64,000 nt of DNA, taken from NCBI GenBank assembly GCA_036874045.1, contig CM072336.1, positions 12,085,001 to 12,149,000 of the forward strand, read 5' to 3'. The stretch's first letter is position 1. The number at the start of each line of letters is the position of its first letter. Below the pieces are notes generated by a model, which saw only the letters and a program-made list of their open reading frames with translations, was not told the DNA's origin and did not search any database. Shown here piece after piece: positions 8,817 through 48,021 of the stretch. This stretch comes from Cymodocea nodosa (lineage: Eukaryota > Streptophyta > Magnoliopsida > Alismatales > Cymodoceaceae). The position numbers were made by a program, and so were the translations under genes.

Positions 8817-8834
8817 TAGCGCCGTTGCTAGGGA
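8817..8834 (+). other. Primer-binding site of P1 (tRNA-Asp type)
   Basis: TAGCGCCGTTGCTAGGGA lies 8 bp after the LTR end. It resembles the complement of the 3' end of plant tRNA-Asp, the primer known for Athila elements, with a few mismatches. Confidence 0.8.
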
Positions 8835-8915
8835 TTAAGAAGCTAAGCAATTGTGAGTGTTGTTTTGTTTTAATAGCAGAGGGAGTGTTGTGTATTTTAT
8901 TTTATAATTGAGAAT

Positions 8916-13750: not shown

Positions 13751-13902
13751 TGTTTAGAATGAAAATGTGCATAATATTAACGGTTAAATGATGGTTAATT
13801 GCATAATATTTAGATAATATATTGTTGACTTCTAAAAAGGAATTACTGATAAGCATATAGATAAATTAACTAAGTTACAAACGGAAGTTAACAAACCAAC
13901 CA
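13751..13902 (+). mobile_element. P2 5' LTR with a large internal deletion
   Basis: Only 152 bp remain: about 60 bp of the LTR-A start joined to about 90 bp of the LTR-A end, against 1961 bp for the 3' LTR of the same element. U3 regulatory region, TATA box and R are all missing, so this copy cannot start its own genomic RNA. The TG...CA termini and TSD are intact. Confidence 0.92.
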
Positions 13903-13909
13903 AGTTTTC

Positions 13910-13927
13910 TAGCGCCGTTGCCGGGGA
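13910..13927 (+). other. Primer-binding site of P2 (tRNA-Asp type)
   Basis: TAGCGCCGTTGCCGGGGA, 7 bp after the LTR end, is the best preserved PBS in the window. From memory, it differs at one base from the plant tRNA-Asp complement used by Athila elements. Confidence 0.88.
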
Positions 13928-13996
13928 ATTGAGTAGCTAAGCAACTGTTCATTTTAATAGCAAGAGTGTTGTGTATTTTCTTCTATGATTGAGAAT

Positions 13997-16900
13997 ATGG
14001 CATATGCTTATGCTCAAAGATTTCTAAAACCTGTAGTTAGCATATGTGAATTCTGCAATTCTGAAGGTCACGACATTTCTGATTGTTTGAAACTAAGACG
14101 TTTGTAGATGGTTAGATCACATGAACAACAAATGAATTATCTTCAATATAATAGTGCCAAGAATGAGAATCCTATAGTTTACCCAACTAATGGTCAGCTT
14201 AGAATGTGTAATATGTTGAGAGACAATGAAGTTTGGGATAGGTATGACAGATTGGAGCGTAGTTTAGAGCAAAACATGGATAAACTAGAATAATATATGT
14301 GTCAGCAACAAGAAGTCAACCAATTAAACTATAAAGAAGCATATTCAGAACCTAAAATTGATATTATATACGAAACTAAAAAAACCATAATGAAAATTGA
14401 TAAAAAATTGAATGCAATGAGATTAGATGATTTGGATAGAAAACTAAAAGCATTTGACGAGTTTACAATGAAAATACAAGTTATGCAACAAGACAACACA
14501 AATGAAAATTATAATGTTATAGATCTGCATAATTTGCAAGACATACAAACAATAGAGAATACCACTGCAAGAGAATTTAAAGAATGCAATTTAAAACTAA
14601 AAACAATTGAAGATCATAATCACGAAAATGATATACAAGAACATCATGAGAGTAACGAAAATCTAGAAGATGTATGTATAACACTAAGATCTGGAACTGA
14701 TATACCACCAAGAATTCAAAATGAAAATAATATGAAGGTGGATAAGAGCAAAAATCAAAATGATAATGAGAATGTAATATCCGAAAATATAGAAATCAAT
14801 GAAGAACAATATGAATCTGAAAATGAGACTAAAAATGATCAAACAAATCAAATGAAAGAGAAAGAATCTTTTAAATCACAATCATTAGCACCCTATCTTG
14901 AAAGATTACAACAAACAATACCTAAAAAATAAGAAAAAATTAGAGAAATTTTTGAAAGAGTACAAGTTATCATTCCTTTGTTAGATCTATTGTAGAAAAT
15001 GCCACCTTGTGCTAAATTTCTTAAGGATTGGTGTACTAAGAAAAGAGAGTGAAAAGTTCTTAGGAAGGTCTTTTTAGCTGAGCAAAGTAGTTCCCTATTT
15101 CTACCACAAATTCCTAAAAAGTTATCTAATCCTGGAATCCCTGTTATATCATGCACCATATGAAATATCATTCTAGAAAGAACCTTAATAGACTTAGGTG
15201 CAAGTATAAATGTTATGCCAAGTGATATATTTGCATCCTTAGGATTGGAAGTCTTAACTCCTACTAGGACTGTTATTCAATTAGCAGATAGAAGTATAAG
15301 ATACCCTAGAGGAAAAATAGAGGATGTCTTAAATTAAAATCAAAAATTTCATATAATAATCATATTATAATTTTGGATTCCCAACAAATTAAGCATAAAA
15401 ATAATGATACATCTTTAATTTTGGGAAGATCATTCTTAGCAACATCAGGGGCTGTTTTAAATTGTAAAACTGGAATTATGAAGTTAGCATATGGTAATGA
15501 GGATACTCAATTAAACCTTTTCAAACCAGAAAAGTTTGAAGAGTTAGAAATGTCCTTACATACTATACAATTCTTGGAGGATGAAGGAGATATGCTAGAT
15601 GATGTGATTCAAGAAGAATTAAATAGGCAACTTAATTCTAAGATTTTAGAAGAAAGTGAAAGCATAAATGTAGAAGGAGATCAAGAAGAAATTAATGATG
15701 TTCAATTCGAAGCTCTAGCTTCTGATGGGCAACAGTTAGAATTAAAACATTTACCTCCTGAATTAAACTATATATTTTTGGAAGAAAAATGAACATGTCC
15801 AATCATTATTGCTTCAGACTTAAAAGAGGATTAAATTTCTAAATTAAAAGATGTAGTAAAAACTTATAAAGAAGCAATAGGATGGACTATGACCGATATA
15901 AAAGGGTTAAGTGCAACTTTATGCTATCACCACATATATTTAGAAGAGAATGCTAAACCAGTTAGAATTCCTGAAAGGAGATTAAATCCAAACCTTAAAG
16001 TAGTCAGGAAGGAAATAGTGAAATGGTTAGATAATGACATAATTTATCCGATTTATGATAGCTCATGGGTTAGTCCAATCCATGTAGTTCCCAAGAAATC
16101 AAGATTAAGTAATTAAGAATGAAAGTCAGGACTTGATACCTACTAGAATTCAATCAAGCTGGAGAGTGTGTATAGACTATAGAAAGCTGAATGTTGTAAC
16201 TAGGAAAGATCATTTTCCTTTACCTTTAATAGATCAAATGCTAGAGAAATTAGTAGGGCAAGAATATTTTTGTATCCTATATGGGTATTCAAGATATAAC
16301 CAAGTTCTAATAGCATTAGAGGATCAAGAGAAAACAACTTTCACTAGTCCTAATGGAACTTATGCTTTTAAGAGAATGCCATTCAAATTATGCAATGCAC
16401 CAACCACCTTTCAAAGGTGTATGCAGGGCATATTCACTAGAATGATTGAAGATTTTTTAGAAATATTTATGGATGATTTTACTGTTTATGGAACTTCATA
16501 TGAAGTGTGTTTAAACAATTTAGACCAAGTATTAAAACGCTGTGTGGAAAAAAATCTGGTTCTAAATTGGGAAAAATGTCACTTCATGGTTAATCAAGGA
16601 ATCGTCTTGGGTCATTTTGTTTCAAAGAAAGGGTTGGAAGTAGATAAAGCTAAAATAGAAGTAATTTCTAATCTACTAGAACCTAAATTAGTAAAAGATA
16701 TTAGATCATTTCTAGGACATGCTGGATTTTATAGAAGATTTATTAAAGATTTTAGCAAAATAGCTAGACCTTTAACTAATCTATTAAAAGATGTCTCGTT
16801 CAACTTTAATAAAAATTGCAAAGAAGCATTTTTCAAGCTTAAAACTAGCTTAATTTCAACTCCTATAATACAAGCACCTAATTGGAGCCATCCATTTGAA

Positions 16901-18533
16901 TTAATGTGTAATGCATTTGATTTTGCTATAGGAGCAGTGTTGGGACAGAAGATAGAAAAATCTCCTAGAGTGATTCATTATGCAAGGAGCTAAAGTGACA
17001 GTGTACACGAATCATTCAGCTTTGAAACACCTAATAGCAAAGAAAGAGACTAAACCTAGATTGATCCGATGGATATTGTTATTACAAGAATTTGATCTAG
17101 AAATTAAAGATAAAAAAGGTTGTGAGAATGTAGTAGCAGATCATTTATCAAGATTACAAACAGAAAAATCAAATATTGAAATTAAGGATAATTTTCCTGA
17201 TAAACAATTAATGACCATCAAAACAATGCCTTGGTATGCTCACATAGTTAATTACTTAGTTATTGGTTTAACACCGAAGGATTGGAATAGACAGGATAAG
17301 AAATTGTTCTTTTCAAGAGTGAGATATTACTATTGGGAAGACTCATACTTATTTAAGAAATGTCCTGATCTGGTTTTAAGGTGGTGTGTTCCAGAAACTG
17401 AATATCAAAGCATATTGTCTTTCTAGCATGACCAAGCATGTGGAGGGCATTTTGGTTCAGGGAAAATTGCTGCAAAAATTTTGCAATGTGGATTTTATTG
17501 GCCAACACTATTCAAAGATGCTCATAAATACTGCTTAAGTTGTTTAAGATGTCAACAAATAGGAAGAATATCAAAGAGGAATATGATGCCTCTTAATCCT
17601 ATTATTGAGGTTGAAATCTTTGATGTATGGGGAATAGATTTTATGGGTCCATTTCCTATGTCTAATCAATTTAATTATATATTGTTGGGGTGGATTATGT
17701 ATCTAAATGGATAGAAGCTATTCCTACAATAACTAATGACAACAAAGTGGTAATACATTTTATAAGAACTAATATAATTGCCAAATTTGGAATACCTAAA
17801 GCTATTATCAGTGATAGAGGAACTCATTTCTGTAATAGAAGTTTTGAAGCCTTAATGAAGAAATATGGAGTGAACCACAAAATTGCAACATCATATCATC
17901 CGCAAACAAGTGAACAAGTAGAGAGTGCTAAGAAACAAATTAAGTTAATTTTAGAAAAAGTAGTAAATCCTACTAGAACAAATTGGGCTAATAGATTGAT
18001 AGATGCACTTTGGGCTTATAGAACTGCTTATAAGACAAGCTTAGGTATGTCACCTTTTTGGCTAGTATATGGAAAAAGTTGTCATTTACCAGCTGAAATT
18101 GAACATAAAGCTTATTAGGCATTAAGAACTCTAAACACTAATTTAAATCAAGTTGCTAAAAATAGGAAATTACAATTGATTGAATTAGAAGAATTTAGGA
18201 ATGAAGCTTATTCAAAAACTGTAAGAGAAAAAAGAGAAAATGAAGTTCTGGCATGATAAGAAAATTATTCTAAAAACCTTTGAAATAAGACAAGAAGTAT
18301 ATCTTTATATGACTAGACTCCATAACCATCCCAAAAAATTAAGATCTAGATGGGTAGGACCTTATATAGTTTGAAATATTTATCCCTATGGAGTTATTGA
18401 GATTGAAAATCCTAAAAATCAGAACATATTTAAAGTAAATGGACAAAGACTTAGACCTATTTTGAAGATACCAAAAAGTTCTTTTTGAATTATAGAAGAA
18501 GTAAGAGTAGAGGACTACTCGAGCTTTACTTAG
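13997..18533 (+). pseudogene. pol: P2 polyprotein remnant: zinc knuckle, protease, RT, RNase H, integrase
   Basis: Same architecture as P1, about 1500 codons from the conserved ATG to the stop after VEDYSSFT. The CCHC knuckle lies at residues 16-29. It is followed by the linker with CITLRSG and the protease (DLGASIN, LILGR). RT shows VCIDYRKLN, CNAPTTFQRCMQGIF and FMDD. RNase H has lost about 95 bp of its core, including the SKTLND motif, at 16980. Integrase keeps HHCC, the D-D-E residues ([26 protein letters not shown]) and a GPY/F-type C-terminus (RWVGPYIV, FKVNGQRLRP). By eye I count about 18 stops or frameshifts, for example 14105, 14291, 15330, 16115, 17424 and 18116. No capsid domain precedes the knuckle. 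Confidence 0.93.
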
Positions 18534-19134
18534 TAAGAAAGTTTCATGTTGAAAAAAAAAAAAAAAAAAAAAATCGTTGCGGTTCAACTAATAAGATCCA
18601 TCAGTCTGACCGAAACATAAAAACATAAAAAAATCTATATATTATTTAGTAAAAAAGTCGATTTTACCGAAGGATAGTATCGGTTCAACTGGTAAAAAAA
18701 AAAAAAAAGAAGTAAGAAAGAAAATATTTAATTTTGATTCAACTGAGGAATATAACAGTTTGACCGAAGAATTTTTAAAATATGGAAAAAGTAAGAGTAG
18801 TTAGACCGGAGCTCTTCGGTCTTGACCGAAGAAAAATTATTATCTTAAGTATTTTTATTAGATATAACTTTACAGGAAGTCCATTGAGTTACGCTTAACT
18901 CAACGAACTTACTCCGTTGAGTCTAGGAAAAGTTAATGTACTTACCCTGTGGAGTTAATCGTAATTCCACGGATGAGAGAGCGAGAGTTGGTGTGGGAAA
19001 TGACCCGATTACTCACCTAAACTTAGGGCTTATTTATCTTAAACTTAGGGTTTTTGGGGGCATTATCTGCAGAATCTTTTAGAACTTAGAACAATAGAGA
19101 TCAGAGCGACTTTGTGCTATTGCGTAACTCCACG
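18534..19134 (+). other. P2 integrase-ORFX spacer: poly-A and palindromes
   Basis: Holds an A-run near 18549-18573, several short inverted repeats built on CGGTT / AACCG (for example around 18806-18830), and the palindrome TTGAGTTA-N4-TAACTCAA at 18884-18903. M2 has the counterpart at 37677-38090 and 40280-40861. No reading frame of note is present. Confidence 0.6.
18884..18920. repeat. CGTTGAGTTA palindromes upstream of ORFX
   Basis: TTGAGTTA pairs with TAACTCAA across 4 nt, and the same right arm can pair with CGTTGAGT just downstream. A GTGGAGTTA / TAATTCCAC pair follows near 18950-18970. Equivalent pairs lie upstream of both ORFX copies in M2 (about 37865-37960 and 40450-40555). Confidence 0.65.
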
Positions 19135-21364
19135 ATGAGGAAGATGACACTCGAGTTCTGGGAAGATTCGGTTGACACTTCAAAATTTCTTAAAGAATCG
19201 GAAGAATGGCACACGAGGTAGAAAATCAAAAATACGACGAGAGAAAAAGAACTATAGAAGGTAGAATCTAAACTTTTCAACTTCAGAAGAGTTTTAGTAG
19301 ATTTGGGTATACAAATACCTCAAATAATGGAAACAAGAATAAAGGTTGCTACAGAAATTGCTGTAAGCAAGGAAAGAAAAATAAGGCCAAACAACGAAGT
19401 TGCCCTAGAATTGATCCAACATAAGTCCCGACTTTGGTTCAAAAGACGAATATGTAGACGAGCTAAATGGGCGATCTAGAAGTAAGAAAGGAAAGAAAAT
19501 GAAGAAGAGACAACTGAAGAACAAGAGGAGCTGACTACTGAAAGACCAGTTCTTGAGGAACAGTAGCCTGGACCTTCAAATCCACCTCCTAAACCTTTAG
19601 AAAGGGTGGTAGTTATGGGGCCTTCAAACAAAGAAGAATTAAGAGAATTTGAAAAACTGATTCGAGTTGTGAAAAACCAAGGAGAATTAGAAGATTTGGC
19701 AGTAGCTAAAGCACACCTAGTGTTCAAGGGCTGCAAAAAAGCTGAAAGCCTAATATAAAATCAAAGTGGAATAGCATCAAGATGCTACTGCCAAACCTGC
19801 TGCAAAAGGAGATGAAGCTAGTCCTTTGAGACCAGTAATTATAGAAAGAATTAAATAGGAAGAGCTAGTACCTTTGGCTCAAAGGCCTATAGAGCCTATT
19901 TTTGTGGATTTGATTTCAAACGAGGAAGAGGAAGACCAGACACAATTAATCAGAAAAAGGAAAGGAAAAGAGATAGTGTCTAAATATCACGAGGAGATCA
20001 AATCTGAAGTACAAATGTCAGTAGATCCTGTAGAGCCAAATTTTGTAAACCTGCTATCCGATTTCGAAGAGGAGCAGTAGCAGCAGCAGCAAGAGCAAAT
20101 AGAAGAAAAATAGGCTGAAACTAGTCTACAACCTGTACAAGAAGAAGAAACAAAAATTAGGGCAAAAGTTAATTTGCCTGTAACTTCATCCCAATCTGCT
20201 ACAGAATCAGAAAGAACAGTTATAATGCAGATTGGTAGTCAGGAGGAAGAAGAAAGAACAGAAAATGAATAAGAAGCTGAACAAATATATATGGAAAGAA
20301 ATGACTCTACAAATTCCACTAAAGAGCAAGAAACTCTTCAACAATTTATGGAAAGAATTCAAGACAAAGTGGAGAGTTTTACCGGCTCACCACCACAGAT
20401 AGAAGCAGAAGCAAATATTCAGGAATCTGCCGAGCATTTTCAGTCTATCCAAGTTCAGCATATGGAAGAGGAAGTTCAAGAACAAACCCCTCTAGAGCAA
20501 CAAATTCATATTCCTAACCCGGTTGAGGCAGCAGTTTTAAATGAAGTTTACTTTTGGAATCAGGAAGCTTATAATAAATACCAAGAGATTAGGGGTTATG
20601 ATATCATTTACAGTAGACCAATAAATTGGGATGGAATGCAAGAAATTAAAGATTTATTTGAGTTCCAAGGTCTACTATAGTTTATTTCTCAGCAAAGAGG
20701 GCATGCAATATATGAGAATTTAGTGCCCTGCTTTTATGCAAATTTGAGAGAAGGAGAAAGAGGATTAATTTTCAATATGGAGAAAGCTGATGTAGAGATA
20801 ACACTAGAGCTTCTCCACAATATTTTCGGACTAAGAAATGAAGGAATTGAAATTCTGGAAGAAACAACTGCAGTGGAATGGGCTGAATAGGAAATTAAAC
20901 AGTGCATAGCCATCGACCCTGGTGTGCCATTACTGAATAGACTGAAGTACTTAAATGGAAAGGCACACATGGTCGCAATCATATTGGTAAAAACTATTTA
21001 TCAAAGACAAGGCCACGGCATTGAACTTAGTCAATTTGTCAAGTGGGCTACATATGTAGTTGTAAACAGAATTCAAGTTAATTGGTACAAAGAATTTATC
21101 TCCAAGTTGAAAGTAGTAAAGAAGAAATTATTTTATGGAGATTTGATTCCACTACTAATGGTGGATAGTATTGATTTCATGAAATGGGCATCCAAGAGGA
21201 TAAGATCAAGAACCATTTTAGTGAAAGAGTACAGAAATTATGCTGCTGCAGAAATTGCTGAATTTTCTAGAGGAGTTATAGGAGCTGTAGAAAGAACTAA
21301 CCTATTAGAGCAACAAGTAGAAAGACTCTAGAAGGAAGTAGATGAACTTAGGAGAAGAGATTAA
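19135..21364 (+). pseudogene. P2 accessory ORFX (plant transposon protein-like), decayed
   Basis: About 740 codons in the ancestral frame, from an ATG shared with both M2 copies to a TAA after VDELRRRD. The N-terminal half is Glu/Gln-rich and likely disordered, with a basic stretch RKRKGKEIV that looks like a nuclear localisation signal. The C-terminal half is globular and best conserved: INWDGMQEIKDLFEFQGLL, then CFYANL, LLNRLKYLNGKAHM, SQFVKWATY and a terminal leucine-rich coiled coil. The FYANL and downstream pattern resembles, from memory, the Pfam domain called putative plant transposon protein (PF20167); I could not test this. It occupies the place of the env-like ORF of classical Athila elements. 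About ten nonsense codons (19219, 20078, 20678, 20888 among them). Biochemical function unknown. Confidence 0.8.
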
Positions 21365-22344
21365 ATTGTATTGTTCGTCTACTTGTGTATATTTGTATGA
21401 AAAATATCTGATTAATTGTAATGTAAATTATTCATATTAATGAATGTGTGTTTTTCATATGTATTTTTCATTCGTGTTTGAAAATGATGAAATGGATGAA
21501 CTATATTGAATATTATATAATGGTTTGAACAAAATGCAAGATTGTTTAAAAGATATACAAATTTGCTGAATGACAAGATTAAAGGCACAATAACTAATTA
21601 ATGCTTGAAAATTTCTGCATGCTGCAAAGAAAAATTTAAATTCTACATAACATGAAATGAACTGCAAGTTAAATATTTATATAATATTCAAATTTAAATG
21701 AGTTAAATTAGAACACTGCATTAATGACATGTATTTAACTTTAATTAAGTTAACAAAATGTAGGAGAGAAAAGAAATATAGAAGTATATACGAGGAGTAA
21801 GTTTTAGAAGTTGCTAAGTGTTAACTCAACGAAGTAAGTTCGTTGAGTTAACCTTAACTGCACGCGGTCAATAATATAATATAAGGTCACTCCGTTGAGT
21901 TATTTGTAACTCAACGAAGTTAGTCTGTTGAGTTAGCAACAGTAACTGAAGCTAGTCTGTGGAGTTAACTGTAGCTCAACGAGGTTAGTTCGTGGATTAA
22001 GCTAAATAATTATTTTATTTAGCCACGAACGAAACTTTGTGGGTTTAGTGGTTACTAAAATTTGAAATTAAAAATGGCACACGTATCCAGAAAAATAGGA
22101 ACCATACTACACGTTACAAGACACGTTCTTACACTGAGATTCATTTGCTTTATGGACGTGCATTATAAATATAGAATAGAATGTTATTTACAAGTTACCA
22201 GCATTTGAGAAAAGAAAATTCGTTGGGGAACTGGAAGGAGAAGCAACTGATTCTACTTCATCCGTTAACAACTATTTACTGAATATAAAGCTTTAGACTG
22301 GTATGTAATTAATCTTCTGCTATCTTATTTTATGTTAACAGTTT
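21365..22344 (+). other. P2 ORFX-gag spacer with palindrome array and splice-like sites
   Basis: No coding potential. It starts with an AT-rich 3' flank of ORFX, then a dense array of CGTTGAGTTA / TAACTCAACG palindromes at about 21820-21995. Just before gag there is a donor-like GGTATGTAATTAAT (GT at 22301) and an acceptor-like TTAACAG ending at 22341, three bases before the gag ATG. A 41-nt intron between these two is too short for plants, so if they are used they must pair with other sites. The donor is conserved in M2 and P3, while the acceptor AG is not kept in M2. Confidence 0.6.
21820..21852. repeat. Perfect 14-bp palindrome upstream of gag
   Basis: Arms GTTAACTCAACGAA and TTCGTTGAGTTAAC are exact complements around the 5-nt loop GTAAG. 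It is the first of several tandem, less perfect pairs running to about 21995. P3 has the same array at about 45900-46140 and M2 at about 34870-35045. Confidence 0.8.
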
Positions 22345-23693
22345 ATGAGCACATGGATTCGTTCTCCTAGTACTAAACAGTTAGTAAGAACACCTACCCA
22401 AGAGTATTCAACACAGAGGCGTACTGAAACATTTTCTGAATTGGACTTTAACGAAATCCTTAGGGGTGTAGCTAACCTTTCTTTAATAGAGAACGAAGAT
22501 ATGGCTGCTCTAGTAGAAAAACCATTAGAGGAAATTCTATATCTTGAATTAGTTGATGAACCTTTATGTATTCGATTGCCAAACTTTGAGGGAGATAGGT
22601 TTGAACTGAAATCTAATTATATTAGTCAATTGCCACATTTTCATGGATTAGAAAGAGAGGCTGCCTATTATTTCCTTAGAGAATTTAACGAAGTTTGTCA
22701 AATGATGAAAATGTCAAACATGAGTATAGTTGCTATTAAACTTAGATATATCTCTTTTGCTTTAAAAGACACAGCTAAGAGATGGTTATATACTCTATCA
22801 CCTGATTCAATTTCTACATGGACTAAATTTTGCTTTGTTTTTTAAGAAAAATATTATCCAACACATCAAACGATTAAAAAGAAAAAGGAAATATTAATGT
22901 GTAACCAAAACAGGGAGAATCATTCTAGAAATATTTTGAAAGATTTAAAGATTTACTAACTCAATGTCCACATCATGCAATGAGTAAAGCACAATTGATA
23001 GGTATAATTTATGAAGGCATAGATGTTTCAATGAAATCTTTATTAGAATCTACTTGTCAGAATGGTTTTTTAAAACTGTGTAGTGAAGAAGCATGGGCAT
23101 ACCTAGAAAACTTTGCAAAAAGAACTGCATAGTGGGAAAACTCAACTGAAGCCATTACAGATAGAAGAATATTGCCAAGGGGAATGCATGAAATAGATTC
23201 AAGCACTATGCTTGAAGTTAAATTAACTAAATTAACAAAGAAAATAGAAGAGTTATCATTAAATCAAAAACTAACAGAAAAGAATGCAAACGTTAATGAC
23301 TTAGATATTATTTATGCTAGAAACCAAAAAGATAACTTTGGAAATTCGTATAACCCTAATTGGAGAAATCACCTGAATTTATCTTGGAGAAACAACAATT
23401 TCCAGGGAGGAGAAAATATAAATGACAAGAATATAAGTTATGAAGCATTGATTGAACAAGGATCTAGAATAGAGAAGTTAGAAAGGATAATTCAACAATG
23501 AAACAATCGTCTAGATTTTGTATTTGGAAATGTTGCAATTCAAAATCAAAATATAAATAGAAATATATCACTTAGACAGAAGGAATCAATAGAAGTTAGA
23601 CCTACTAGAGGATTGCCAATGCAAGCAGTACCTAACCCTATTAACAGAACTATTAATGAAATTGATACCTCCTCTGGGAGGGTAACCGAATGA
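22345..23693 (+). pseudogene. gag: P2 gag capsid ORF located downstream of pol
   Basis: About 450 codons. The N-terminal part is a Ty3/gypsy Retrotrans_gag capsid: IRLPNFEGDRFELKSNYI, YYFLREFNEVCQMMKM, IKLRYISFALKDTAKRWLY and the helix pair around TIKKKKEIL and CPHHAMS. After a coiled coil comes the Athila-specific YNPNWRNHLNLSWRN and a second coiled coil (RIEKLERIIQQ). The CCHC knuckle usually found near this motif is absent; it sits at the start of the pol ORF. It should assemble virus-like particles. Defects: a stop at 22843, a 1-bp loss soon after, and stops near 23130 and 23499. Start chosen at the ATG after the palindrome array; M2 shares it, while P3 has GTG. Confidence 0.92.
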
Positions 23694-23916
23694 AACATCA
23701 TAACTGAAGTAACTATGTATAATATAGTAAGTAGAAAAATATAAATATATATATATATATATATAAGTTTAATTATAGTTAGTAGTATCGTAGAGTTATT
23801 ACTTAACTCAACGAACTTAGTCCGTTGAGTTATGACCTAACTCCACGAGGGTATGAAGTAGCTATGTTGATTTTATCTCTGTTAATTTTTGTTTCTGTCA
23901 TACAGAATCACAACAG
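23694..23916 (+). other. P2 gag-F-box spacer: AT microsatellite, palindrome, 3' splice-like site
   Basis: Contains a (TA)n run at about 23743-23765, the palindrome at 23804-23832, and a pyrimidine-rich stretch ending TACAG at 23905, twelve bases before the F-box ATG. M2 (TACAG) and P3 (TATAG) keep a tract and AG at the same distance. This would suit expression of the F-box protein from a spliced subgenomic RNA (inference). Confidence 0.6.
23804..23832. repeat. Palindrome between gag and the F-box gene
   Basis: TAACTCAACG and CGTTGAGTTA separated by 9 nt. The M2 equivalent lies near 33085-33120 and is nearly as good; P3 retains only a remnant near 47932-47955. Confidence 0.7.
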
Positions 23917-25053
23917 ATGGAATTGATGAAATTACCGTTGGACGCATTAAGGGAAGTATTGAGTAATTTGTTAGCTAAAGATATATGCAGATTGTGTTGT
24001 GTATCAAAAGATATTAAGGACTATGATAGAGAAAAATATTTTCATAGACTACAAGCTGCAAAAATGACTAAGATTAGAGATGGATTTTTATGGAAGTCAT
24101 TTAATCGTAGTTCAATTAGCTATGAATATCTGAATATGGAAGAAACTACTAGAATTCCACCCAATACATTAGAAGGAATAGATCATATTATGGGGATGGA
24201 TGAAAGATTAATTATATATAGAACCAAACCAAGGTATGCAATTCTATTACCTGATATTTTGATTAGAAATCCTCTCACAAGAGAAGAATAGAATATAGGA
24301 AGGCCTAATAGATATGAAGTACCAATTGAAAATTGTGGGTCAGCTTTAATATTTTCTGATAAAAATTTGACCATTCCTGAAAAATTATATTATTGGAGAC
24401 CAATTGGGAATTGGGATGAAGATTTATGCTTAAGTGTGTATAATTTTCTGAATAGATCTTGGACCGAAAATATTATGATATATTTAGGACAGAAATCATT
24501 AATTAACAATATGCATGTCATAATTGATGGATATATATATCTAGTCACAGATATATTAGTTGCATTTAGATCTGATTTATACATAGTAAGCATAGACAGT
24601 TATGAGGATTTTATAGAAATATTACCTATACCAAGTGATATAGCTAAACCACCATCTGCAGAATATGATAAAATTCAATTAGGAATGTGGTATAATGAAT
24701 ATGATGATCCTACATTATGTCTGATAAGATGGTGGGATGAATTGAAGAAATTTCAAATATGGATTATAAAAGACCTAAATGAATGGAAGTGGGAAAAGGA
24801 ATATATTGAAATAGATGTAGAAATAGAAACAACTACACTATCTTGGAACAGAAGAGGATCTCTTTCTGCATTTCATTTCATTAATGGAAATACACTTATA
24901 TTTAGTATTGATAACATACTACAAGTTTACAAATTAAAAAGGAAAATAGACTACATTGAAACAGAATTGATAGCAAGAAGAATTATGCCAAAGAAGTTTG
25001 CTTGGACTGACACGTTTATTCCATTTGTTACTACTTTTCAGTCATGTTCTTAA
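23917..25053 (+). pseudogene. F-box protein gene carried by P2 (one premature stop)
   Basis: A 378-codon frame with a single nonsense codon at 24289 (TAG where M2 and P3 encode Trp in EEWNIGRPN). Residues 1-45 form an F-box (ELMKLPLDALREVLSNLLA, CRLCCVSK), the module that binds SKP1 in SCF ubiquitin ligases. The rest resembles a plant F-box-associated domain, with WWDELKKFQIWIIKDLNEW typical of its blade-like repeats; it would choose the substrate. It lies between gag and the 3' UTR within one LTR-bounded unit, and homologues occupy the same place in M2 and P3. It is better preserved than pol, gag or ORFX in the same element. Substrate unknown. A host gene is unlikely given the repeated context. 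Confidence 0.88.
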
Positions 25054-25176
25054 AGTATGATTCTGTGTTTTTAGTGTTGTGTGTAGTCTGCATTTATTTT
25101 TAGAAAAAAAAGAAAAAAAAAAATATCAATCCAGTTTGTTGGTATCTATTCTGGGAAATCAACTAGCTTGCTTGTA

Positions 25177-25209
25177 AGCCACCAAAGGCATAGGAGCCTG
25201 GGTTCCACA
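25177..25209 (+). promoter_or_regulatory. 33-nt conserved block in the 3' UTR
   Basis: Starts AGCCACCAAAGGCATAGG and ends GGGTTCCACA. It is identical base for base to 32129-32161 of M2 (minus strand), while the flanking sequence shows substitutions. Possible RNA structure or protein-binding site; function unknown. Confidence 0.6.
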
Positions 25210-25385
25210 TAAGACACCGATTAACAAGTTATGTTTTGTTGCTATATATTTTGCTTTTAATTGTGAATGAAAAGTTTTTCAGATTCAAAAATCGAAAGAT
25301 ATTGAAGGAGATACAAAAGAACAAGGTATGTAATTAATTAATTACCCTAAATTTACATTTAAACTCAGTTCATGGAGTTATTCAT

Positions 25386-25414
25386 TAACTCAACGAATTA
25401 AGTTCGTTGAGTTA
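25386..25414. repeat. Perfect 12-bp palindrome downstream of the F-box gene
   Basis: Arms TAACTCAACGAA and TTCGTTGAGTTA around the loop TTAAG. It is the last of the palindromes placed at ORF boundaries in P2. Confidence 0.75.
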
Positions 25415-25479
25415 GGTGCTAAGTCAACGAAACAATATTCATGCCTACTGCAATTACTGTATTTATTGAAAAATCTTTT

Positions 25480-25518
25480 ACATTGAGAACAATGCAAAAT
25501 GTAGGTATAGGGGGGAAG
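25480..25518 (+). promoter_or_regulatory. Second, internal polypurine tract with CATTGAGAACAATG motif
   Basis: ACATTGAGAACAATG is followed by GTAGGTATAGGGGGGAAG, which closely resembles the terminal PPT context. M2 has the same arrangement at 31874-31914 (minus). It could be a second plus-strand priming site or a relic of an older 3' end. Confidence 0.55.
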
Positions 25519-26807
25519 TAATTAAAGTAACAGCTATGTAATTTTGATTAGTTAGAAGAATTAAAATAGTACTGCAAAAGTTCTATGGAAGTTGAAGTTG
25601 CTATATCTATCCGATAATTGAAACTGCAAAAATTTTTAAAGAACTGTAACTGCTAAAATGTTATATTTATAATCTTATATAAGATGCTACCAATTTTACT
25701 ACTCATACAAATCTAGATATAGTATCTTATGTTTTTGCTGAAATTAATGAGTTTAACAATTTCACGATTTAAAAAAAAAATCAGAATGTTTAACTGAGAC
25801 TCAGTAAATTATCTAAAATCCTAAAAGAGCTTAAATGTTGATTTTTGGATTAAAGGAAATACATATGATCAAGGATACATTTAATTTGATTGATTAAACT
25901 TGTAGAATGATTTATGTGTAGATCTTATTAAATTACATAAAAAGTATGAGCTTATTGATATGGATTCATATTTTCAGTAAATAATAAGAGTAGGAAAATA
26001 CGAGATTTGTGTTTTATTGCATCTGTATTAATGAAATACGTTCATATACTGTGTTGAAAAGAAAAAAAGAGAAAAAAAAGAGAAAAATTTTGAGAGTTTA
26101 TTGACTTGTTTGATCATGAGCCTTTTTGTACTTGAGCAGATAGGTATGTAAGGATTGTTGACCTGAAAAAGGACTCTTTAAATCTGGCAACCTAAGATTC
26201 TGATCAAATCTAGGATTGTTGACTGAAAGCTTGATACATGGGTGCACTAAAAAGCTTTTGTATGATTCAAGCTTATCAAATTAACTTTTAAAAGTACAAA
26301 TATGCATATACTGTTTTGAAAAGATACAAGTGTTTTGTGAAATACAGATATCTTCTGAATTGAGTATATGTTTTGTTATCTAAAATTGTTGAAGTATGAA
26401 TCTAGAATAGACTTTTGTAGTTGTTTATTTGAGATACAATTCTTTATTCTACTTGTCTTAATCATATTGAATTGGATTGTGTTTTGATTCGAATGTACTT
26501 GAAATTTATTCTGGAAATCATATTGGAAAATTCAGGATGACAAATGCTGAAAAGAAAAAAAATCATAATATAATTAACACCTATGTGATGCTAATATATT
26601 TTGTACGTAATTTACATATATTCTAAATATATTTGCAGGTTGAAGAGGAGAAAACAAAGTTAAAATAGATTACTAAAGCATATAGAATATATATATAGTA
26701 ATCTAATTTATTATTCTGAAGAAGAGCGAAATGAAGAATTAAATCTAGCACTTTAGAAAGACCAATTAGTTAAATCTTAGTTTGCTAAGGGACTAGCAAT
26801 ATTTAAG

Positions 26808-26818
26808 TATGGGGGAAG
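26808..26818 (+). other. Polypurine tract of P2
   Basis: TATGGGGGAAG directly before the 3' LTR start TGTTTAG, the expected plus-strand primer site. It is identical in M2. Confidence 0.9.
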
Positions 26819-28779
26819 TGTTTAGTATGAAAAAGTGCATAATATTAACGGTTAAATGATGGTTAATTGCATAATATTTAGCTTATCATATGAGAATTAA
26901 GCCATTATGTTATAATTGCACTATTATATGCTTTAATGAAAGAATCTGCATAATTTCAAGGAATTAGCGTTAATTTAATACATTTCTGAACTATCGATAA
27001 GTTGCTGGTTTTTAATTCTTTAGTATCCGATTTTTCTATTATTTCGAAGAGTTATATTGCATGTACCAGACAGTTATGTTTTAAATGCTAAAAGAATATT
27101 TAGGTGAACAGTAACAACTCGTTGAGTTACAAGTTTAAAGGTATAAAAAGATCACATGAGAACTCATTGAGTTAGCGAGTAAAAACCTTAAGTTATATAT
27201 CTGAACTCGTTAAGTTAGATTTATGCACGTGTTGAATTTAAATGCTTTATTATGTCACATGAGATGCACATGTTTAACTCGTTAAGTTAGCATAACTGTA
27301 CACGTTGAGTTACATGAATACACACTAAAGTAACACATTAGGTTAGCAGCTTATTTCTTTATTACATGTGTTTTATAGTTAAATCAACGAAGTAAGTCCG
27401 TTGAGTTATCTGTAACTCCACAGACCATTTAATTTCTAATATGCCACTGTAGTAGTTACAGAAATAGGACATTTGAAGGAAAACCACGATTGCACGTATC
27501 ACGTAGGAATTCACTCGTGGAAGGGAGAAGAAATCACCATAATTAATATGAATGAAGGAAATCCAACCAATCATATAAGCAGAAGTAGTTACCACTAAAG
27601 AAATATAAAAGAAAAGGAGAAAAGATGAAGAAGTGTATGGCCAGTGTGTGTGCAGAGGAGGACAAACCGAGCTATCTGCAAGTAGTGTCAGAAGTTCCTT
27701 GAAGTTCCACACCAACCACCATCACCAACCATTGGAGGTCTGTGAGGATACTTTCCTGATGTCAAGTCGATTCTGAGCCAAACACGGTGCCTGACAACCA
27801 TTGTGAGGAGTGATCGCGTCGCGGGAAGGGAAGCCATTTTCACCAAGCACCGACTCATATCTCAGGAGAACGTAAAGCTTCTAGCCTTGGTTTCGAGTTG
27901 ATGCCAGTATGCTAAAGAAGAGATCATCTTGCAGTTCTAGACTTGCGATTCTATAGGGAGAGGAGGCAGAATTGTAAGTAATTAAGTTTTCAGTGGTGTA
28001 ATCGCGTCGCATGTAGTGACGGAAGTATTTACTATCGATAGAGATTACTATTACATTTCACCTTTCACCCATTCTCATGATCATATCAAAACAAAAATAC
28101 CAAAAACAACTTATCTATGTTTATAGTTAGTATTTGAGTGTTGTATTATTTGTTTTGTATCGTGATTAATGTTATCATTGTTAGTGTTTTGAATGTTTCA
28201 TGTTTGTTTAATTGAGAAAATAGAAAATAGTTTTACAATTTACTGAAATTGAATCGTTCCTGATACTTAAAGATTTTAATGGTTACTGTTTGAAATATCT
28301 AAAGGTTAGTGTTGCTGAATGATAAATCCAATATTAACTAGCATTAAAGAGCTTAATTGATGTTATTTACAATCTATGGAATCGCCCAATGATTGGCCAA
28401 ATTCCTCTATAAATAGCAATATTAAATTGGAAAGATAGGCTCGTAGAGTTAACTTAAGTCCACGAGATTAATCCGTTGAGTTAGCCATAACTCCAAGAAC
28501 TAAGTCCGTTGTGTTAACTGTAACTCAACGGAGTGCGTAACTAAACACATAAACTCCATTATTAAAAACGGAACAGTACACAATTCTACCTCAATTCTCT
28601 ATGGGATCAACATGTACTTGCACCAAATACAATATACACTGTGCACTTGCAGTTAAAATACAAATTAGAATTAATATCTAATTTGTGTGAAAGAATGTTT
28701 GTTGACTTCTAAAAAGGAATTACTAATAAGCATATAGATAAATTAACTAAGTTACAAATGAAAGTTAACAAACCAACCA
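26819..28779 (+). mobile_element. LTR-A: complete 3' LTR of P2 (reference copy)
   Basis: 1961 bp, TGTTTAGTATG...AACCAACCA, between PPT and TSD. U3 holds CACGTG-like boxes and CGTTGAGTTA / CGTTAAGTTAG motifs (about 27115-27330). The TATA box lies near 27604, followed by the conserved R block containing GCACCGACTCATATCTC. A donor-like ATTGTAAGTAATTAAG occurs near 27971. The U5 end carries more CGTTGAGTTA palindromes (28440-28540). Confidence 0.93.
27604..27610 (+). promoter_or_regulatory. Putative TATA box of LTR-A
   Basis: TATAAAAGA, conserved in the LTR-A copies that keep this region, just upstream of the most conserved block. Confidence 0.55.
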
Positions 28780-28784
28780 GCTCC

Positions 28785-29574: not shown

Positions 29575-30549
29575 AATCACCAACTTTTCTTCCTATGCAA
29601 TACATGCAATCGTGGTTTCTCTTCCAACTGTCCTGTTTCTGCAACCGCTACAGTGGCATATTAGAAAATAAATAGTCTGTGGAGTTACAGATAACTCAAT
29701 GGACTTTCTTCGTTGATTTAACTATAAAACACGTGCATAAATTTAACTATCTAATGCTCAGGTGCATTTCGGATACTTACAAACTTTACTATCCGATGCT
29801 CAGATGCATTTCAGATACTTACAAACTTAACTATCCAATGCTCAAATGCATTTCAGATAGTTACAAATAACTCACCGATATATAACTTAAGTAAATCTAC
29901 CAGATCTCGACACATGTCAACAACTGTTTAATAATAAAATACACATTTTGGAGAGTTACAGGTCTAACTATCCGATACTCAGATGCATTTCGGATAGTTA
30001 TAGATAACTCACCAAAAATCCACTTAAGTCACTTTACTAGAACATGACACGTGCCCACAACTATTTTATAAATAAAAAGAGATTTCGGAGGGTTACACAT
30101 ATAACTATCTGATGCCCAGCTGCAATTTCGGATAGTTATAGATAACTCACCGAAAGTTCACTTAAGTCATGCGTTATGGTTTTGACACGTGTACTTCAGG
30201 AAATAATAAAATATTCTTTCAAAACATAACTGTTCGGTAATTTAAACATAACTATTCGACATGTTCGGTCTGTTAAACATAACTGTTCGAAATATGTTCG
30301 GTATGTTAAACATAACTGTCTGAAATATCAGAAAATTCAGATACTTAAGAATTTCATAGCCTACAACTTATCGACAGTTCAGAAATGTACTAAATTAACA
30401 TTAATTCCCCAAAATTAAGTAGCAATTCTAATTAAAGCATATAACAGTGCAATTATAACATAATGGCTTAATTCTTATATGATAAGCTAAATATTATGCA
30501 ATTAACCATCATTTAATTGTTAATAATATGCACTTTTTTATTCTAAACA
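29575..30549 (-). mobile_element. LTR-A fragment: truncated 3' LTR of minus-strand element M2
   Basis: Reverse LTR-A running from its start (TGTTTAG at 30549) through U3 to about 975 bp, then broken at the junction with the P1 integrase; TATA, R and U5 are lost. It directly follows the M2 PPT. U3 contains the hairpin-type tandem ATCCGATGCTCAGATGC units. Confidence 0.88.
29735..29880. repeat. Tandem U3 minisatellite, about 53-bp unit
   Basis: Nearly three units containing AACTATCCGATGCTCAGATGC followed by ATTTCAGATA(C/G)TTACAAA. The unit can fold because GGATAGTT/AACTATCC arms recur. It accidentally encodes a repeating reading frame, which is not a gene. The same array occurs at 63235-63372 and about 42008-42085. 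Confidence 0.75.
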
Positions 30550-30562
30550 CTTCCCCCATACC
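30550..30562 (-). other. Polypurine tract of M2
   Basis: Minus strand GGTATGGGGGAAG immediately before the LTR start, same as P2. Confidence 0.88.
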
Positions 30563-32309
30563 TAAATTTTGCTAGTCCCTTAGCAAACTAAGATCTAATT
30601 AATTGGTCTTTCAAAAAGTGTTAGAATTAATTCTTCCCCTTTCTTTTTTTCTTCTATTCAACATAAGAATATATATTCTGTATTTTTCAGTAATCAACCT
30701 GTAAATATAATTAGAATATATGCAAATTATATACGAAGTATATCATCATCACATAAGTGTTAATTATATTATCGTTTGTTCTTCTTTTCATCATTTGTCA
30801 TCCTGAATTTTCCAATAAGATTTCTAGAAGAAATTTCAACAACATACGAATCAAAGTACAATCCAATTCAATATGATTAAGACAAGTAGAATAAAGAATT
30901 GTATCTCCATTAAAACAACTTCAAAAGTCAATTCCAGATTCATAATTCAGCAATTCTAGATAACAGAAAATATACTCGATTCATAAGATATCTGTATTTC
31001 ACAAAACACTTGTATCTTTTCAGAACAGTATATGTTTTTTTTTTTTTCTTTTTTTTTTATACTTTAAAAGTTAATTTGACAAGCTTGAATCATACAGGAG
31101 CTTTTTAATATACCCATGTAACGAGCTTTCAATCAACAATCCCAGATTTGATCAAGATCTTAGGTTGCCAGATTTCAAGAGTCCTTTTTTTTTTTAGGGC
31201 AACAATCCTTACATACCTATCTGCTCAAGTACAAAAGGCTCGTGATCAAACAAGTCAATAAACTCTCAAAATTTTCTCTTTTTTTTTTTTTTTTCAATCA
31301 AAATACACACAAAACAAAGCATTAATCACATACTATATATGTACGTATTTCATTAATACAGATGTAGTAAAACACCAATCTCATATAGTCCTACTTCTAT
31401 CATTTACTAAAAATATGAATCCATAACAGTGAGCTCATACTTTTTCTGTAGTTTAATAAGATCTACACATAAATCATTCTACAAGTTCAATCAGTCAAAT
31501 TAAATGTATCTTTAATCATATGTGTTTCATTTAATCTAGAATTCACATCTCAGCTCCTTCAGGACTTCAAATAATTTACTGATTTTTCATTAAGCATTCT
31601 GATTTCATTTTAAAATTGTGAAACTATTAAACTCATGAAATTTAGAAAAAAAAACATAAGATACTATATCTAGATTTGCATAAATAGTAAATTCTATAGC
31701 ATCATATATAGCCTTCTAAATATAACATTCAAGCATTTACAGATTATAAATTTTACAGTCTCAATTATCGGATAGTTACAGCAAGTTCATAAAAATTTTC
31801 AATTTCCACAAAACTTTGTAGTACCATTTTAATTTTTTTTTAATTAACAAACTTACATGGCTATTACTTTAATTACCTCCCCCCCATACCTACATTTTGC
31901 ATTGTCCTCAATGTAAAAGATTTGGCAGTAAATACAGTAATTGTAGCAGGCATGAATACAGTTTTGTTGATTTAAAATTCAGGATAAGTAATCAGTTACA
32001 TACCTTGATTTGTTTGTATCTCTTTCTGCATATTCCAATTTTTGATTTTAGAAAACTTTTCATTCATAGATAAACACAGAATATAAAACAAAATAACATT
32101 TAACAGATATTGATAATTCAGTGTCTTGTGTGGAACCCAGGCTCCTATGCCTTTGGTGGCTCACAAGCAAGCCAGTTGGTTTCCCAAAACAGATACCAAC
32201 AAACTGGATTGATATTTTTTTTTTTTTTCTTTTATAAAATAAAATGAAAACTATATTTTTTCTAAAAATAAACGTAGAATACACAACATTAAACACACAA
32301 AATCACAAC
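30563..32309 (-). other. M2 3' untranslated region
   Basis: Collinear with the P2 3' UTR and non-coding. It includes the identical 33-nt block (32129-32161), an internal PPT-like tract with CATTGAGGACAATG (31874-31914), poly-T runs near 31033, 31188, 31280 and 32217, and splice-like ends (AAGGTATGTAACTG near 32003; TTTACAG near 30703). Confidence 0.65.
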
Positions 32310-33003
32310 TTAAGAACATGATTGAAAAATAGGAACAAATGGAATAAATGTATTAGTCCAAGCAAACTTTTTAGGCATATTTCTTGCTATTAATTCTGTT
32401 TTCATGTAGTTCTTGTTCCTTCTTAATTTGTAAACGTGTAATATATTATAAATTCCAAGATCTATTCAGAAAATTATACACACTTAAGCGTAAATCTTTA
32501 CCTCAATTTCCTGTAGGTCTCCAATAATATAATTTTTCAGGAATTGCAGAATTTTTATCAAAAAATATTAAAGCCGATCCACAATTTACAGTTGGTACTT
32601 CAAATCTATTAGGTCTTCCTATATTCCATTCTTCTCCTATTATAGGATTTCTTATCAAAATATTAGGTAATAATAAACTTGCATACCTTGGTCTCATCTT
32701 GTATATGATTAATCCTTCATCTATCCCTATAATATGATTTATTCCTTCTAATGTATTAGGTGGAATTCCAGTAGTTTCTTCCATAGCCAGATATTCATGT
32801 TTAATTGAACTACGATTAAATGACCTCCATATGAATCCATCTTTAATCTTAGTCATTTTTGCAGCTTGTAGTCCTTGAAAATATTTTTCTTCAATACAGT
32901 CTTTAATTTCCTTTGATACACAACACAGCCTACACAGATCTTTAGCTGATAAGTTACTCAGTACTTCCCTTAGTGCATCCAACGGTAATTGCATCAATTC
33001 CAT
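32310..33003 (-). pseudogene. F-box protein gene of M2, with an internal deletion
   Basis: Starts MELMQLPLDALREVLSNLSA, an intact F-box, and is open for 166 codons, keeping the Trp (GEEWNIGRPN) that is a stop in P2. At 32503 a Trp codon has become TGA (GN* where P2 has GNWDED). About 480 bp of the F-box-associated domain are then missing between NFLNRSW and the C-terminal segment, which is still recognisable up to the TAA. An AG acceptor-like site precedes the start as in P2. Confidence 0.87.
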
Positions 33004-33196
33004 TTGTTGATTCTGTATAACACAAACAAAAATTTAGCAGAGACAAAAACGTAACATAACTACTATACACCCTTGTGGAGTTATTAAGGCATAACTCAAC
33101 GGAATAAGTTCATTGAGTTAAGGACTGACTCTACGATACTATTAACTATAAATAAAAACATATATATATACAAATAGCTGCTTTAGATATGCTACT
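33004..33196 (-). other. M2 gag-F-box spacer
   Basis: Same arrangement as in P2: TA-rich run near 33158-33172, TAACTCAACGG paired with TCATTGAGTTA at about 33092-33120, and a pyrimidine tract ending in TACAG before the F-box ATG. Confidence 0.55.
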
Positions 33197-34533
33197 TCAT
33201 TTAGCTATCCTCCTAGAAGAGGTATCAATTTCATTAACCGTTCTATTGACAGGATTAGGTATTGCTTGTATTGGCAATCCTCCAATAGGTCTAACTTCCA
33301 TTGGTTCCTTCTGTCTAAGTGGTATATTTCTATTCTGATTTTGAATTGCAGCACTTCCAAATACAAAATCTAGACGATTGTTTAATTGTTGGATTATCTT
33401 TTCTAATTTCTCTATTCTAGATCCTTGTTCCAGTAATGCTTCATAACTTATATTCTTCTCATTTACATTTTCTCTTCCTTGGAAATTGTTGTTTCTCCAA
33501 GATAAATTCGGGTGATTTCTCCAATTAGGATTATAAGAATTTCCCAAGTTATCTCTCTGGTTTCTAGCATAAATAATATCTAAATCATTTATGTTTGCAT
33601 TCTTTTCTGCTAGCTTTTGATTTAATGATAACTCTTCTATTTTCTCTATTAATTCAGTTAATTTCACCTCAAGCATAGTACTTCAATCTATTTCATGCAT
33701 TCCTCTTGGCAATATTTTTTTATCTGCAATAGCTTTAGCCGAGTTTTCCCATTGTGTAGTTCTTTTTGCAAAGTTTTCTAAATATGCCCATGCTTCTTCA
33801 CTACATAACTTTAAAAATCCATTTTGACAAGTAGATTCTAATAAAGATTTCGTTGAAACATCTATGCCTTCATAAATTATACCTATTAATTGTGCTTTAC
33901 TCATTGCATGATGTGGACATTGAGTCAGTAAATCTTTAAATCTTTCAAAATATTTCCAAAATGATTCACCCTGTTTTTGGCTACACATTAAGATTTCTTT
34001 CTTCTTTTTAATCGTTTGATGTGTTGGATAATATTTTTCCAGAAAAACAGAGTAAAATTCAGTCCATGTAGAAATTGAATCAGGCAATAGAGTATATAAC
34101 CATCTCTTAGCTATGTCTTTTAAAGAAAAAGGGATATATCTAAGTTTAATAGCATCTATACTCATGTTCGGCATTTTCATCATTTGACAAACTTCATTAA
34201 ATTCTCTAAGGAAATAATAGGCATCCTCTCTTTCTAATCCATGAAAATGTGGCAATTGACTAATATAATTAGATTTCAGTTCAAGCCTATCTCCCTCAAA
34301 GTTTGGCAATCGAATACATGAAGGTTCATCAACTAATTCTGGATACAGAATTTCTCCTAATGGTTTTTCTACTGGAATAGCCATCTCTACGTTCTCTTTT
34401 AAAGAAAGGTTAGCTACACCCCAAAGAATTTCGTTAAAGTTCAGTTCAGAAAATTTTTCAGTACTCCTCTGCGATCCTAGGTAGGTGTTCTTACTAATCG
34501 TTTAGTGCTTAGAGAACGAGTCCATGTGCTCAT
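33197..34533 (-). pseudogene. gag: gag capsid ORF of M2
   Basis: Counterpart of the P2 gag with the same start (MSTW). The capsid core is fully open from 34384 to 33683 and is the best copy in the window: IRLPNFEGDRLELKSNYI, LREFNEVCQMMKMPN, KRWLYTLLPDSISTW, EKYYPTHQTIKKKKE, CPHHAMSKAQ. One in-frame stop after MHEID splits it from the part with YNPNWRNHPNLSWRN and the coiled coil RIEKLEKIIQQLNNRL. Near the start a stop and a frameshift (about 34480-34490) break the N-terminal 45 codons. No CCHC knuckle is present. Confidence 0.92.
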
Positions 34534-35473
34534 AAATAAATAGCAAAAGATTAATTACATACCAGTCTGAAGCTTTCCATTCAATAAATATTTGTTGTCC
34601 GATGAAGTCGAATCAACTGCTTCACCTTCCAGTTCCTCCAACACATTCTCCTTTCTTTTAAAAGTGTTGGTAACTCGTAAATAACATTTTGATTTATATA
34701 TATAATGTACATCCATAAAGTGAATAAATCTCGTTGCAAGAATGTGTCTTGCAACGTGCATTGTGGTTCCTATTTTTATGGGTACGTGTACCACTATTAA
34801 TTTCAAATTTTAGTAACCGCTAAGCCGACGAAGTTTCATTCGTGGTTAAAAGAATAATCGTTCTGCTTAATCCACGAACTAACCTCATTGAGTTACAAAT
34901 AACTCAACGGAACACAGTCGGTTACTGTTGCTAACTCCACGAACTAACTTCGTTGAGTTACAGATAACTCAACGGAGTGACTTTATATTATATTACTGAC
35001 CTCGTGAAGTTACAGTTAACTCAACAAACTTACTTCGTTGAGTTAACACTTAGCAACCTCTAAGTTTTACTCTCGTAAATTCCTCTTTGTCTTTTTTTCT
35101 TTTTCATTCTGCTAACTGAAATAAAGTTAAATCTATGTCATTAATGCATCATTCTAATCAAAATTCGTTTAAATTTGAACATTATATAAAGATTTAACTT
35201 GCAGGTCATTTTATGTTATGCAGAATTTACATTTTACCTTGCAACATTCAGAAATTTTTAAACATTTATCTTGTCATTTAGCAAATTGTAAATCTATTAA
35301 ACATTCATTCATAATCTTCTACAAAATATATATAACATTCAATACATTCCATTCATTTTCACATCCAAAACATGTATGAAAATTGCATTTGAAAAATTTA
35401 TATTCATTAATATGAATCAATTTATAGTACAAATACATCATACAATTTTATACAAGTAGACGAACAATACAAT
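34534..35473 (-). other. M2 ORFX-gag spacer with palindrome array
   Basis: Non-coding. Palindromes of the CGTTGAGTTA class cluster at about 34870-35045, next to the conserved donor-like GGTATGTAATTAAT near 34555. A short frame at 34555-34806 lies in this conserved non-coding segment and has no family resemblance. Confidence 0.6.
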
Positions 35474-47844: not shown

Positions 47845-48021
47845 AGTAGTATAATTGAGCAATTATGTATAATATAGAAAAATATAAAAAGAAAAAAATG
47901 TAAGTTTAATTATAATTAGTAATATCGTAGAGTTATGACCTAACTCCACGAGGGTATGTAAGTAGCTATGTTGATTTTATCTCTGTTAAATTTTTGTTTA
48001 TGTTATATAGAATCACAACAG

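Follow-up and report, generated by a model that had tools for sequence, protein, structure and literature searches.

Architecture of the F-box-bearing element

The stretch of DNA analyzed here ("the window") comprises 64,000 nucleotides of Cymodocea nodosa contig CM072336.1. At 23917..25053 (+) it contains an F-box ORF of 378 codons plus a stop codon (25051-25053), and this ORF lies within an Athila-like Ty3/gypsy element, P2, at 13751..28779 (+). P2 is one insertion, as seen from its TSD and its modules. The sequence GCTCC flanks it on both sides (13746-13750 and 28780-28784), and the modules follow the order LTR, primer binding site (PBS), zinc knuckle, protease (PR), RT, RNase H (RH), integrase (IN), spacer, post-IN ORF, capsid, F-box, PPT and LTR. 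Because the TSD is present on both sides, the F-box gene is truly located inside a mobile element.

The 5' LTR (13751..13902, +) has undergone an internal deletion, and the 152 bp left match the start and end of the 3' LTR (26819..28779, +; 1961 bp). The PBS, TAGCGCCGTTGCCGGGGA (13910..13927, +), begins 8 bases past the LTR end and agrees at 17 of 18 positions with the complement of the plant tRNA-Asp end; the other leaders in the window are more decayed. A zinc knuckle of the form CX2CX4HX4C (CEFCNSEGHDISDC; 14045..14086, +) is encoded in a leader ORF upstream of the protease. Remains of the protease, RT, RNase H and integrase (14482..18540, +) were delineated by DNA similarity to a sister copy, e1. 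Pfam identified rve (PF00665, E 7.9e-12) in P2 itself, and RVT_1 and RT_RNaseH in e1 (9972-12467), to which P2 was aligned by DNA. The post-integrase region (19725..21999, +) features an ORF in the env position; the pieces of this ORF in another copy, M2, gave no accepted Pfam match. The PPT, TATGGGGGAAG, was located at 26808..26818 (+). Of the hallmarks of an LTR retrotransposon, P2 thus has the LTRs, TSD, PBS and PPT, and the RT was recognized through e1. Rfam and tRNA scans found nothing.

P2 resembles the Athila lineage (OTA Ty3/gypsy elements; Athila4, Calypso, Diaspora) in its long LTR, its Retrotrans_gag capsid, the order PR-RT-RH-IN, the extra ORF after pol, and a PBS of the tRNA-Asp type shortly behind the LTR; the last is reported as a feature of the lineage (PMC1142308) and is found in P2 at the 17/18 level given above. 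It differs from that lineage in that the zinc knuckle has stayed upstream of the protease while the capsid follows pol and the post-IN ORF, and in the addition of an F-box gene. The Ty3/gypsy order GAG-PROT-RT-RH-INT is not followed, as the capsid is 3' of IN, and because of this non-standard domain order the element is called Athila-like, not standard Athila.

Displacement of the capsid

The capsid ORF of P2 (22345..23693, +) is broken and is located downstream of pol. Taken by itself, the first piece of this ORF fell below the Pfam cutoff (E 0.011), and the P2 capsid was matched by tblastn of capsid relatives. The M2 capsid (33197..34501, -), composed of two ORFs with one stop between them, was assigned to PF03732 (E 2.4e-20), and a third capsid region, that of P3, occupies 46158..47876 (+). 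Eleven related capsid proteins (46-55% identity) were available; at an E threshold of 1e-4, tblastn with all 11 located capsid sequence at three sites in the window only, each directly before an F-box. The leaders that follow LTR ends at 8782, 13882 and 57252 all (3/3) open with a CX2CX4HX4C ORF, and capsid is absent from them. These zinc-knuckle regions (8782-9400, 13882-14481 and 57252-57857) stand right after the PBS and before the protease. A scan of IMG/VR for the capsid produced three pattern matches, none of which was confirmed.

M2 has the same order as P2, i.e. integrase end, spacer, post-IN ORF (here duplicated), capsid and F-box; P3 starts only at the post-IN region. The displaced capsid is therefore joined to pol in two of the three copies, and the TSD proves a single element in one. 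In one of the capsid relatives, P0001, the capsid is followed by its own zinc knuckle in a single protein, and in Diaspora the gag core, zinc finger and protease are reported to share one ORF (PMC1142308). The split gag may be no less unusual than the F-box gene. The main plant survey is reported to have dropped elements with an unexpected domain order as likely mispredictions (PMC6317226), so split-gag elements may have been overlooked.

The F-box gene and its copies

An F-box domain (PF00646) was found at the N-terminus of the predicted protein in both M2 (residues 4-41, E 8.6e-11, 41.7 bits) and P2 (E 2.3e-6, 27.7 bits), in each case above the curated cutoff of 20.5 bits; the P2 protein was searched with X at its stop codon. 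That codon, a single in-frame TAG at 24289-24291, is codon 125 of the P2 ORF and follows 124 codons. The M2 element, as matched, spans 29590..42771 (-); its 5' LTR is fused to the integrase end, and most of pol is missing. Its F-box ORF (32310..33003, -) is open for 166 codons at the N-terminus, after which stops occur, and it has lost ca. 443 bp corresponding to P2 24464-24906. M2 also contains a 2.6-kb tandem duplication (35484-38089 and 38089-40690, -; 97.2% identical) that spans the post-IN ORF and spacer. In P3, a solo LTR (48344..50345, -) with its own TSD, GTATG (48339-48343 and 50346-50350), splits the gene into a first (48022..48343, +) and a second piece (50380..51034, +). The second piece is cut at its 3' end and has in-frame stops of its own; the P3 match ends at about 51034, inside the gene.

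No intact F-box copy is present among the three. Their lesions (a nonsense codon in P2, a deletion in M2, and a solo LTR plus shortening in P3) differ from copy to copy, a pattern that would fit insertion of each copy with an open F-box frame and later decay. A chance match to the F-box is very unlikely, given its Pfam scores, the syntenic position of three copies, and a substitution pattern specific to the frame (see below).

A preliminary description of this DNA had placed a full F-box and F-box-associated-domain gene between gag and the PPT of a retrotransposon, in three copies with the same flanks. Carriage by an LTR retrotransposon was borne out by the TSD-bounded P2, and the F-box domain and its common location stood as well. 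"Full" did not, all copies being broken, and an F-box-associated domain is at most suggested. In P2 and M2 the gene is found downstream of the capsid ORF and upstream of the PPT, with the qualification that the capsid itself has moved behind pol; in P3 it directly follows the capsid region, and that copy ends inside the gene. Likewise, the capsid-side flank is common to all three, and the 3' flank is common to P2 and M2 only.

These flanks bear on the notion that the elements repeatedly exchanged sequence with a host F-box family, or captured from it independently, in which case the constraint would be that of the feeding host genes. Plant F-box families are large and fast-evolving, as this notion would have it. 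However, P2 and M2 align in register on both sides of the gene, and P3 does so on the capsid side, which argues for one capture; in addition, no relative was found among 5.8 billion proteins, a collection in which plants are poorly covered. We regard such exchange as improbable.

Divergence among copies

The LTR pair of P2 has 7 differences in 152 aligned positions (3 of 80 in the right-hand piece), and that of M2 (from 42771 and 30549) differs at 55 of 769 positions (92.8% alike). By comparison, the LTRs of P2 and M2 are 15-16% different from each other over the first ca. 240 bp. Between P2 and P3, the divergence was 10.6% and 9.0% in the two F-box pieces, 8.1% in the capsid, 11.2% in the capsid-F-box spacer, 15.1% in the spacer between the post-IN ORF and capsid, and 19.6% in the post-IN region. 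Between P2 and M2, it was 8.9% in the capsid, 13.2% and 14.7% in the F-box, 18.1% and 19.3% in the spacers, and 15.2% in the 3' region. The copies thus differ by 9-15% in the F-box and by 11-19% in non-coding spacers, both above the LTR differences within an element, and the F-box is less diverged than every non-coding stretch measured, with a small margin in two of five.

Since the divergence between copies exceeds that between the LTRs of one element, the copies diverged before insertion, with the F-box already present. The earlier proposal that capture preceded amplification is in keeping with these values: three diverged copies share the location, and the P2 and M2 LTRs are 15-16% apart. 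The case that would have told against it, duplication of this locus alone, is contradicted by the TSD of P2 and by differences between copies that are larger than those between the LTRs within P2 or M2.

We considered whether M2 might represent the 3' half of e1 (LTR start 6963) in inverted orientation and rejected this, as the M2 LTRs are 5% apart vs. 15-16% from that of e1. An LTR at 62561 is almost as near to the M2 LTRs (6-7% vs. 5%, first ca. 240 bp), and the rejection is provisional.

Selection on the F-box frame

The F-box comparisons draw on only three copies within a single window, and the three pairs overlap in the copies they use and cannot be counted as independent. For the P2-P3 pair (318 codons), the NG86 method yielded a dS of 0.273 and a dN of 0.065. 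The ratio, 0.24 (bootstrap range 0.15-0.37), from a dN/dS comparison of the kind that the preliminary description had proposed, is consistent with a function in the element. Because base composition and methylation can mislead such estimates, randomized nulls were also used: the observed changes were randomly placed 2000 times each while keeping either the substitution spectrum or also the neighboring bases (in two ways). Codons in windows of less than 65% identity and those touching gaps were left out, and M2 was limited to its N-terminal 166 codons.

In the true frame of the F-box, the relative N/S under the three nulls was 0.43, 0.44 and 0.50 for P2-P3 (0 of 2000 under each), 0.48, 0.52 and 0.64 for M2-P2, and 0.46, 0.49 and 0.59 for M2-P3. 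The spectrum-keeping null, applied to four F-box comparisons, gave 0.43-0.48 with P from 0 of 2000 (P2-P3, M2-P3) to 0.0085; under the context-keeping nulls the range was 0.44-0.64 (P, 0 of 2000 to 0.026). For the capsid, the values were 0.48, 0.51 and 0.54 (M2-P2) and 0.49 (M2-P3, spectrum-keeping null only). Wrong frames of the F-box ranged from 0.67 to 1.64, frame 1 of P2-P3 being at 0.67 (P 0.03), 0.71 and 0.81. Counts of stop codons alone were not significantly low.

As controls, the spacer before the capsid ranged from 0.85 to 1.11, and the non-coding 3' region was at 1.01 to 1.06 in two frames and at 0.68-0.69 (P 0.0105-0.017) in one. PR-RT returned 0.74 (P 0.056) and 0.65 (P 0.0225) in its own frame and 0.61 (P 0.0065) in one wrong frame; the post-IN ORF was at 0.91 (P 0.28). 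The strays in the 3' region and in the wrong frame of PR-RT indicate that the test has false positives, and given that some controls deviate from 1, we read the weakest of the F-box values (0.64, P 0.026; M2-P2 under the trinucleotide null) as suggestive at most. The F-box signal is stronger than the stray controls and recurs in each pair. The substitution patterns show purifying selection on the F-box frame that is about as strong as that on the capsid.

These values were weighed against the idea that a host F-box gene was transduced once and has been carried functionless, like many captured plant gene fragments. Capture of host genes by LTR elements is reported to be common (PMC7264820, PMC3726574, PMC13317346), an F-box "LTR-gene" has been reported in Thlaspi arvense (PMC8764390), and all F-box copies here are broken. 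But selection that preceded the capture cannot shape differences among copies derived from one capture, and it is these differences that carry the frame-specific constraint in three of three pairs; the F-box is also less diverged than each non-coding stretch measured, narrowly so in two of five. Functionless carriage therefore seems rather unlikely to us.

Splice-like signals

A donor-like sequence, GTATGTAATTAATC (22301..22314, +), is located upstream of the P2 capsid. The donor-like GGTATGTAATTAATC precedes the capsid in all three copies; P2 has a similar sequence after its F-box as well. An acceptor-like CATACAG (23899..23905, +) after a pyrimidine-rich run ends 11 nt before the ATG of the P2 F-box. 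In general, the pyrimidine-rich stretch ends in CAG (P2, M2) or TAG (P3) at 11, 9 and 11 nt before the ATG, respectively; the equivalent AG is present in 3/3 copies, and the 42-45 nt ahead of it are free of AG. A further AG occurs immediately before the ATG in P2 and P3, and M2 is without an acceptor AG ahead of the capsid itself. Joining of donor to acceptor would remove the capsid from the message and leave the F-box as its first ORF. The signals thus suggest a spliced F-box message, and splicing of this kind is reported for the plant element Bagy2 (PMC7264820).

A donor-like (25326, +) and acceptor-like (26640, +) pair brackets most of the stretch from the F-box to the PPT, suggesting a candidate intron in the 3' UTR of the element.

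The C-terminal half and searches for relatives

Pfam returned no match, at E up to 10, for the C-terminal half of the F-box protein (including FBA and kelch), and a profile of it had no match among PDB sequences at E up to 5. The predicted C-terminal fold, with runs of four strands, has a mean pLDDT of 46, i.e. low confidence; the model of the N-terminal part is poorer (pLDDT 35). The top-ranked PDB fold matches of this low-confidence C-terminal model include DDB1 and nucleoporin chains, which we take to be beta-propellers. The F-box profile had two weak matches among PDB sequences, both to FBXO4 over its F-box (E 0.13).

A search of 5.8 billion proteins with the P2 F-box protein, again with X at the stop, returned 1152 candidates, none at E 1e-3, and the profile search returned 4500, none at E 0.1; plants are poorly covered in these collections. 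The C-terminal piece had five pattern matches in IMG/VR and the M2 N-terminus 56 in GTDB genomes, none confirmed in either case, and the gene had no match among plasmids. No relative that might represent the host donor was found in these collections, which are poor in plant proteomes. As they seem to hold little plant sequence, the lack of F-box relatives is weak evidence.

Comparison with known systems

Plant LTR elements are known to carry additional sense-oriented ORFs in the interval from pol to the 3' LTR (PMC7264820). The F-box gene resembles the env-like ORFs of such elements in position, orientation and possible expression by splicing, and is unlike them in encoding a recognizable SCF adaptor domain. 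Bs1 of maize and the LTR-captured genes of rice and sorghum likewise place a host-like gene inside an LTR element, and Bs1 is reported to carry gene segments (PMC13317346); the present case differs in that one gene is common to diverged copies and bears frame-specific constraint. The Thlaspi arvense gene TaChr6G576 is an F-box "LTR-gene" that its authors assign to an LTR element; in contrast to the gene described here, it is reported as one gene that was later tandemly duplicated within the expansion of a host gene family (PMC8764390). With that report in print, capture of an F-box gene by an LTR element has a precedent, and what may be new is that copies share the gene and that it is under selection. 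The word F-box is absent from the main text of a review (PMC7264820), a lineage survey (PMC6317226) and a study of LTR-captured genes (PMC3726574). In the open-access literature searched, a constrained F-box accessory gene common to diverged copies was unnamed; it may be described elsewhere.

Polerovirus P0 and nanovirus Clink offer a likeness of kind: each belongs to a mobile parasite of plants and has an F-box or F-box-like part that binds SKP1. P0 is described as having an F-box-like motif (PMC6593998) and Clink as a 20-kDa protein (PMC3588083); the protein considered here has a Pfam-grade F-box and a long C-terminal part. P0 is reported to act against AGO1, and Clink on pRb (PMC3588083). 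For P0 of Brassica yellows virus, contact with SKP1 reportedly helps to keep P0 itself stable, and suppression does not directly depend on it (PMC6593998), so the simple SCF model is debated even for P0.

Proposed role of the F-box protein

In SCF ligases, the F-box protein binds SKP1 and brings a target to cullin1. The F-box gene studied here is carried by a TSD-bounded element, is found at one common location in three diverged copies, and has been under frame-specific purifying selection. On balance we lean toward the view that an Athila-like element gained the gene ahead of the separation of today's subfamilies and has maintained it as an accessory gene encoding an SCF substrate adaptor. 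The F-box would be translated from a spliced message, joined from the donor just upstream of the capsid to the acceptor ca. 10 nt before the ATG, in the manner of the env-position ORF in some plant elements. The N-terminal F-box would then bind host SKP1, and the C-terminal, possibly propeller-like domain would bind the target; in this way, the element would place its own substrate adaptor in the host's SCF ubiquitin ligase.

A host restriction or silencing factor appears to be the likeliest class of target, at roughly an even chance. The element's own capsid, the immediate neighbor of the F-box, comes next as a distinctly lesser prospect, the effect then being regulatory. A related proposal is that the F-box protein turns over the element's own capsid or integrase, so as to limit copy number or to time particle disassembly and not to counter silencing. 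The F-box adjoins the capsid in three of three copies, and the splice-like signals would make the two alternative products, both of which accord with self-turnover; the reported targets of plant-virus F-box proteins, however, are host proteins, AGO1 and pRb among them (PMC3588083, PMC6593998). We consider self-turnover unlikely.

Returning to the accessory-gene view, a more far-reaching version can be offered tentatively, and we hold it to be doubtful as a whole. A retrovirus-like plant lineage would encode a selected SCF adaptor whose splicing is alternative to a capsid moved behind pol (the split gag), and this adaptor would remove a host silencing or restriction factor, which would make it the transposon analog of polerovirus P0. 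Plant LTR elements survive in the face of small-RNA silencing, and those parts of the literature examined name no LTR element with a protein that exploits the host ubiquitin system. With a conserved, element-borne F-box, such exploitation could be tested directly.

Other features of the window

ORFs at 51344-53567 (+) resemble the remains of a second, distinct element. One of them (53134-53436) shares 45% identity over 86 aa with the post-IN ORF of M2, to which it is related, and scored 17.2 bits against PF20167, well under the 45-bit cutoff. Finally, a near-palindromic 27-mer, AACTCAACGAAnTTAGTyCGTTGAGTT, has 32 matches with three or fewer mismatches at 19 places in the window, many of them on both strands, and none in 100 shuffles. 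In P2 it occurs at 18897, 21823, 21908, 23805, 25387 and 27381, i.e. in the LTR and at sites that separate one ORF from the next; it is possibly an RNA hairpin or a protein-binding site.
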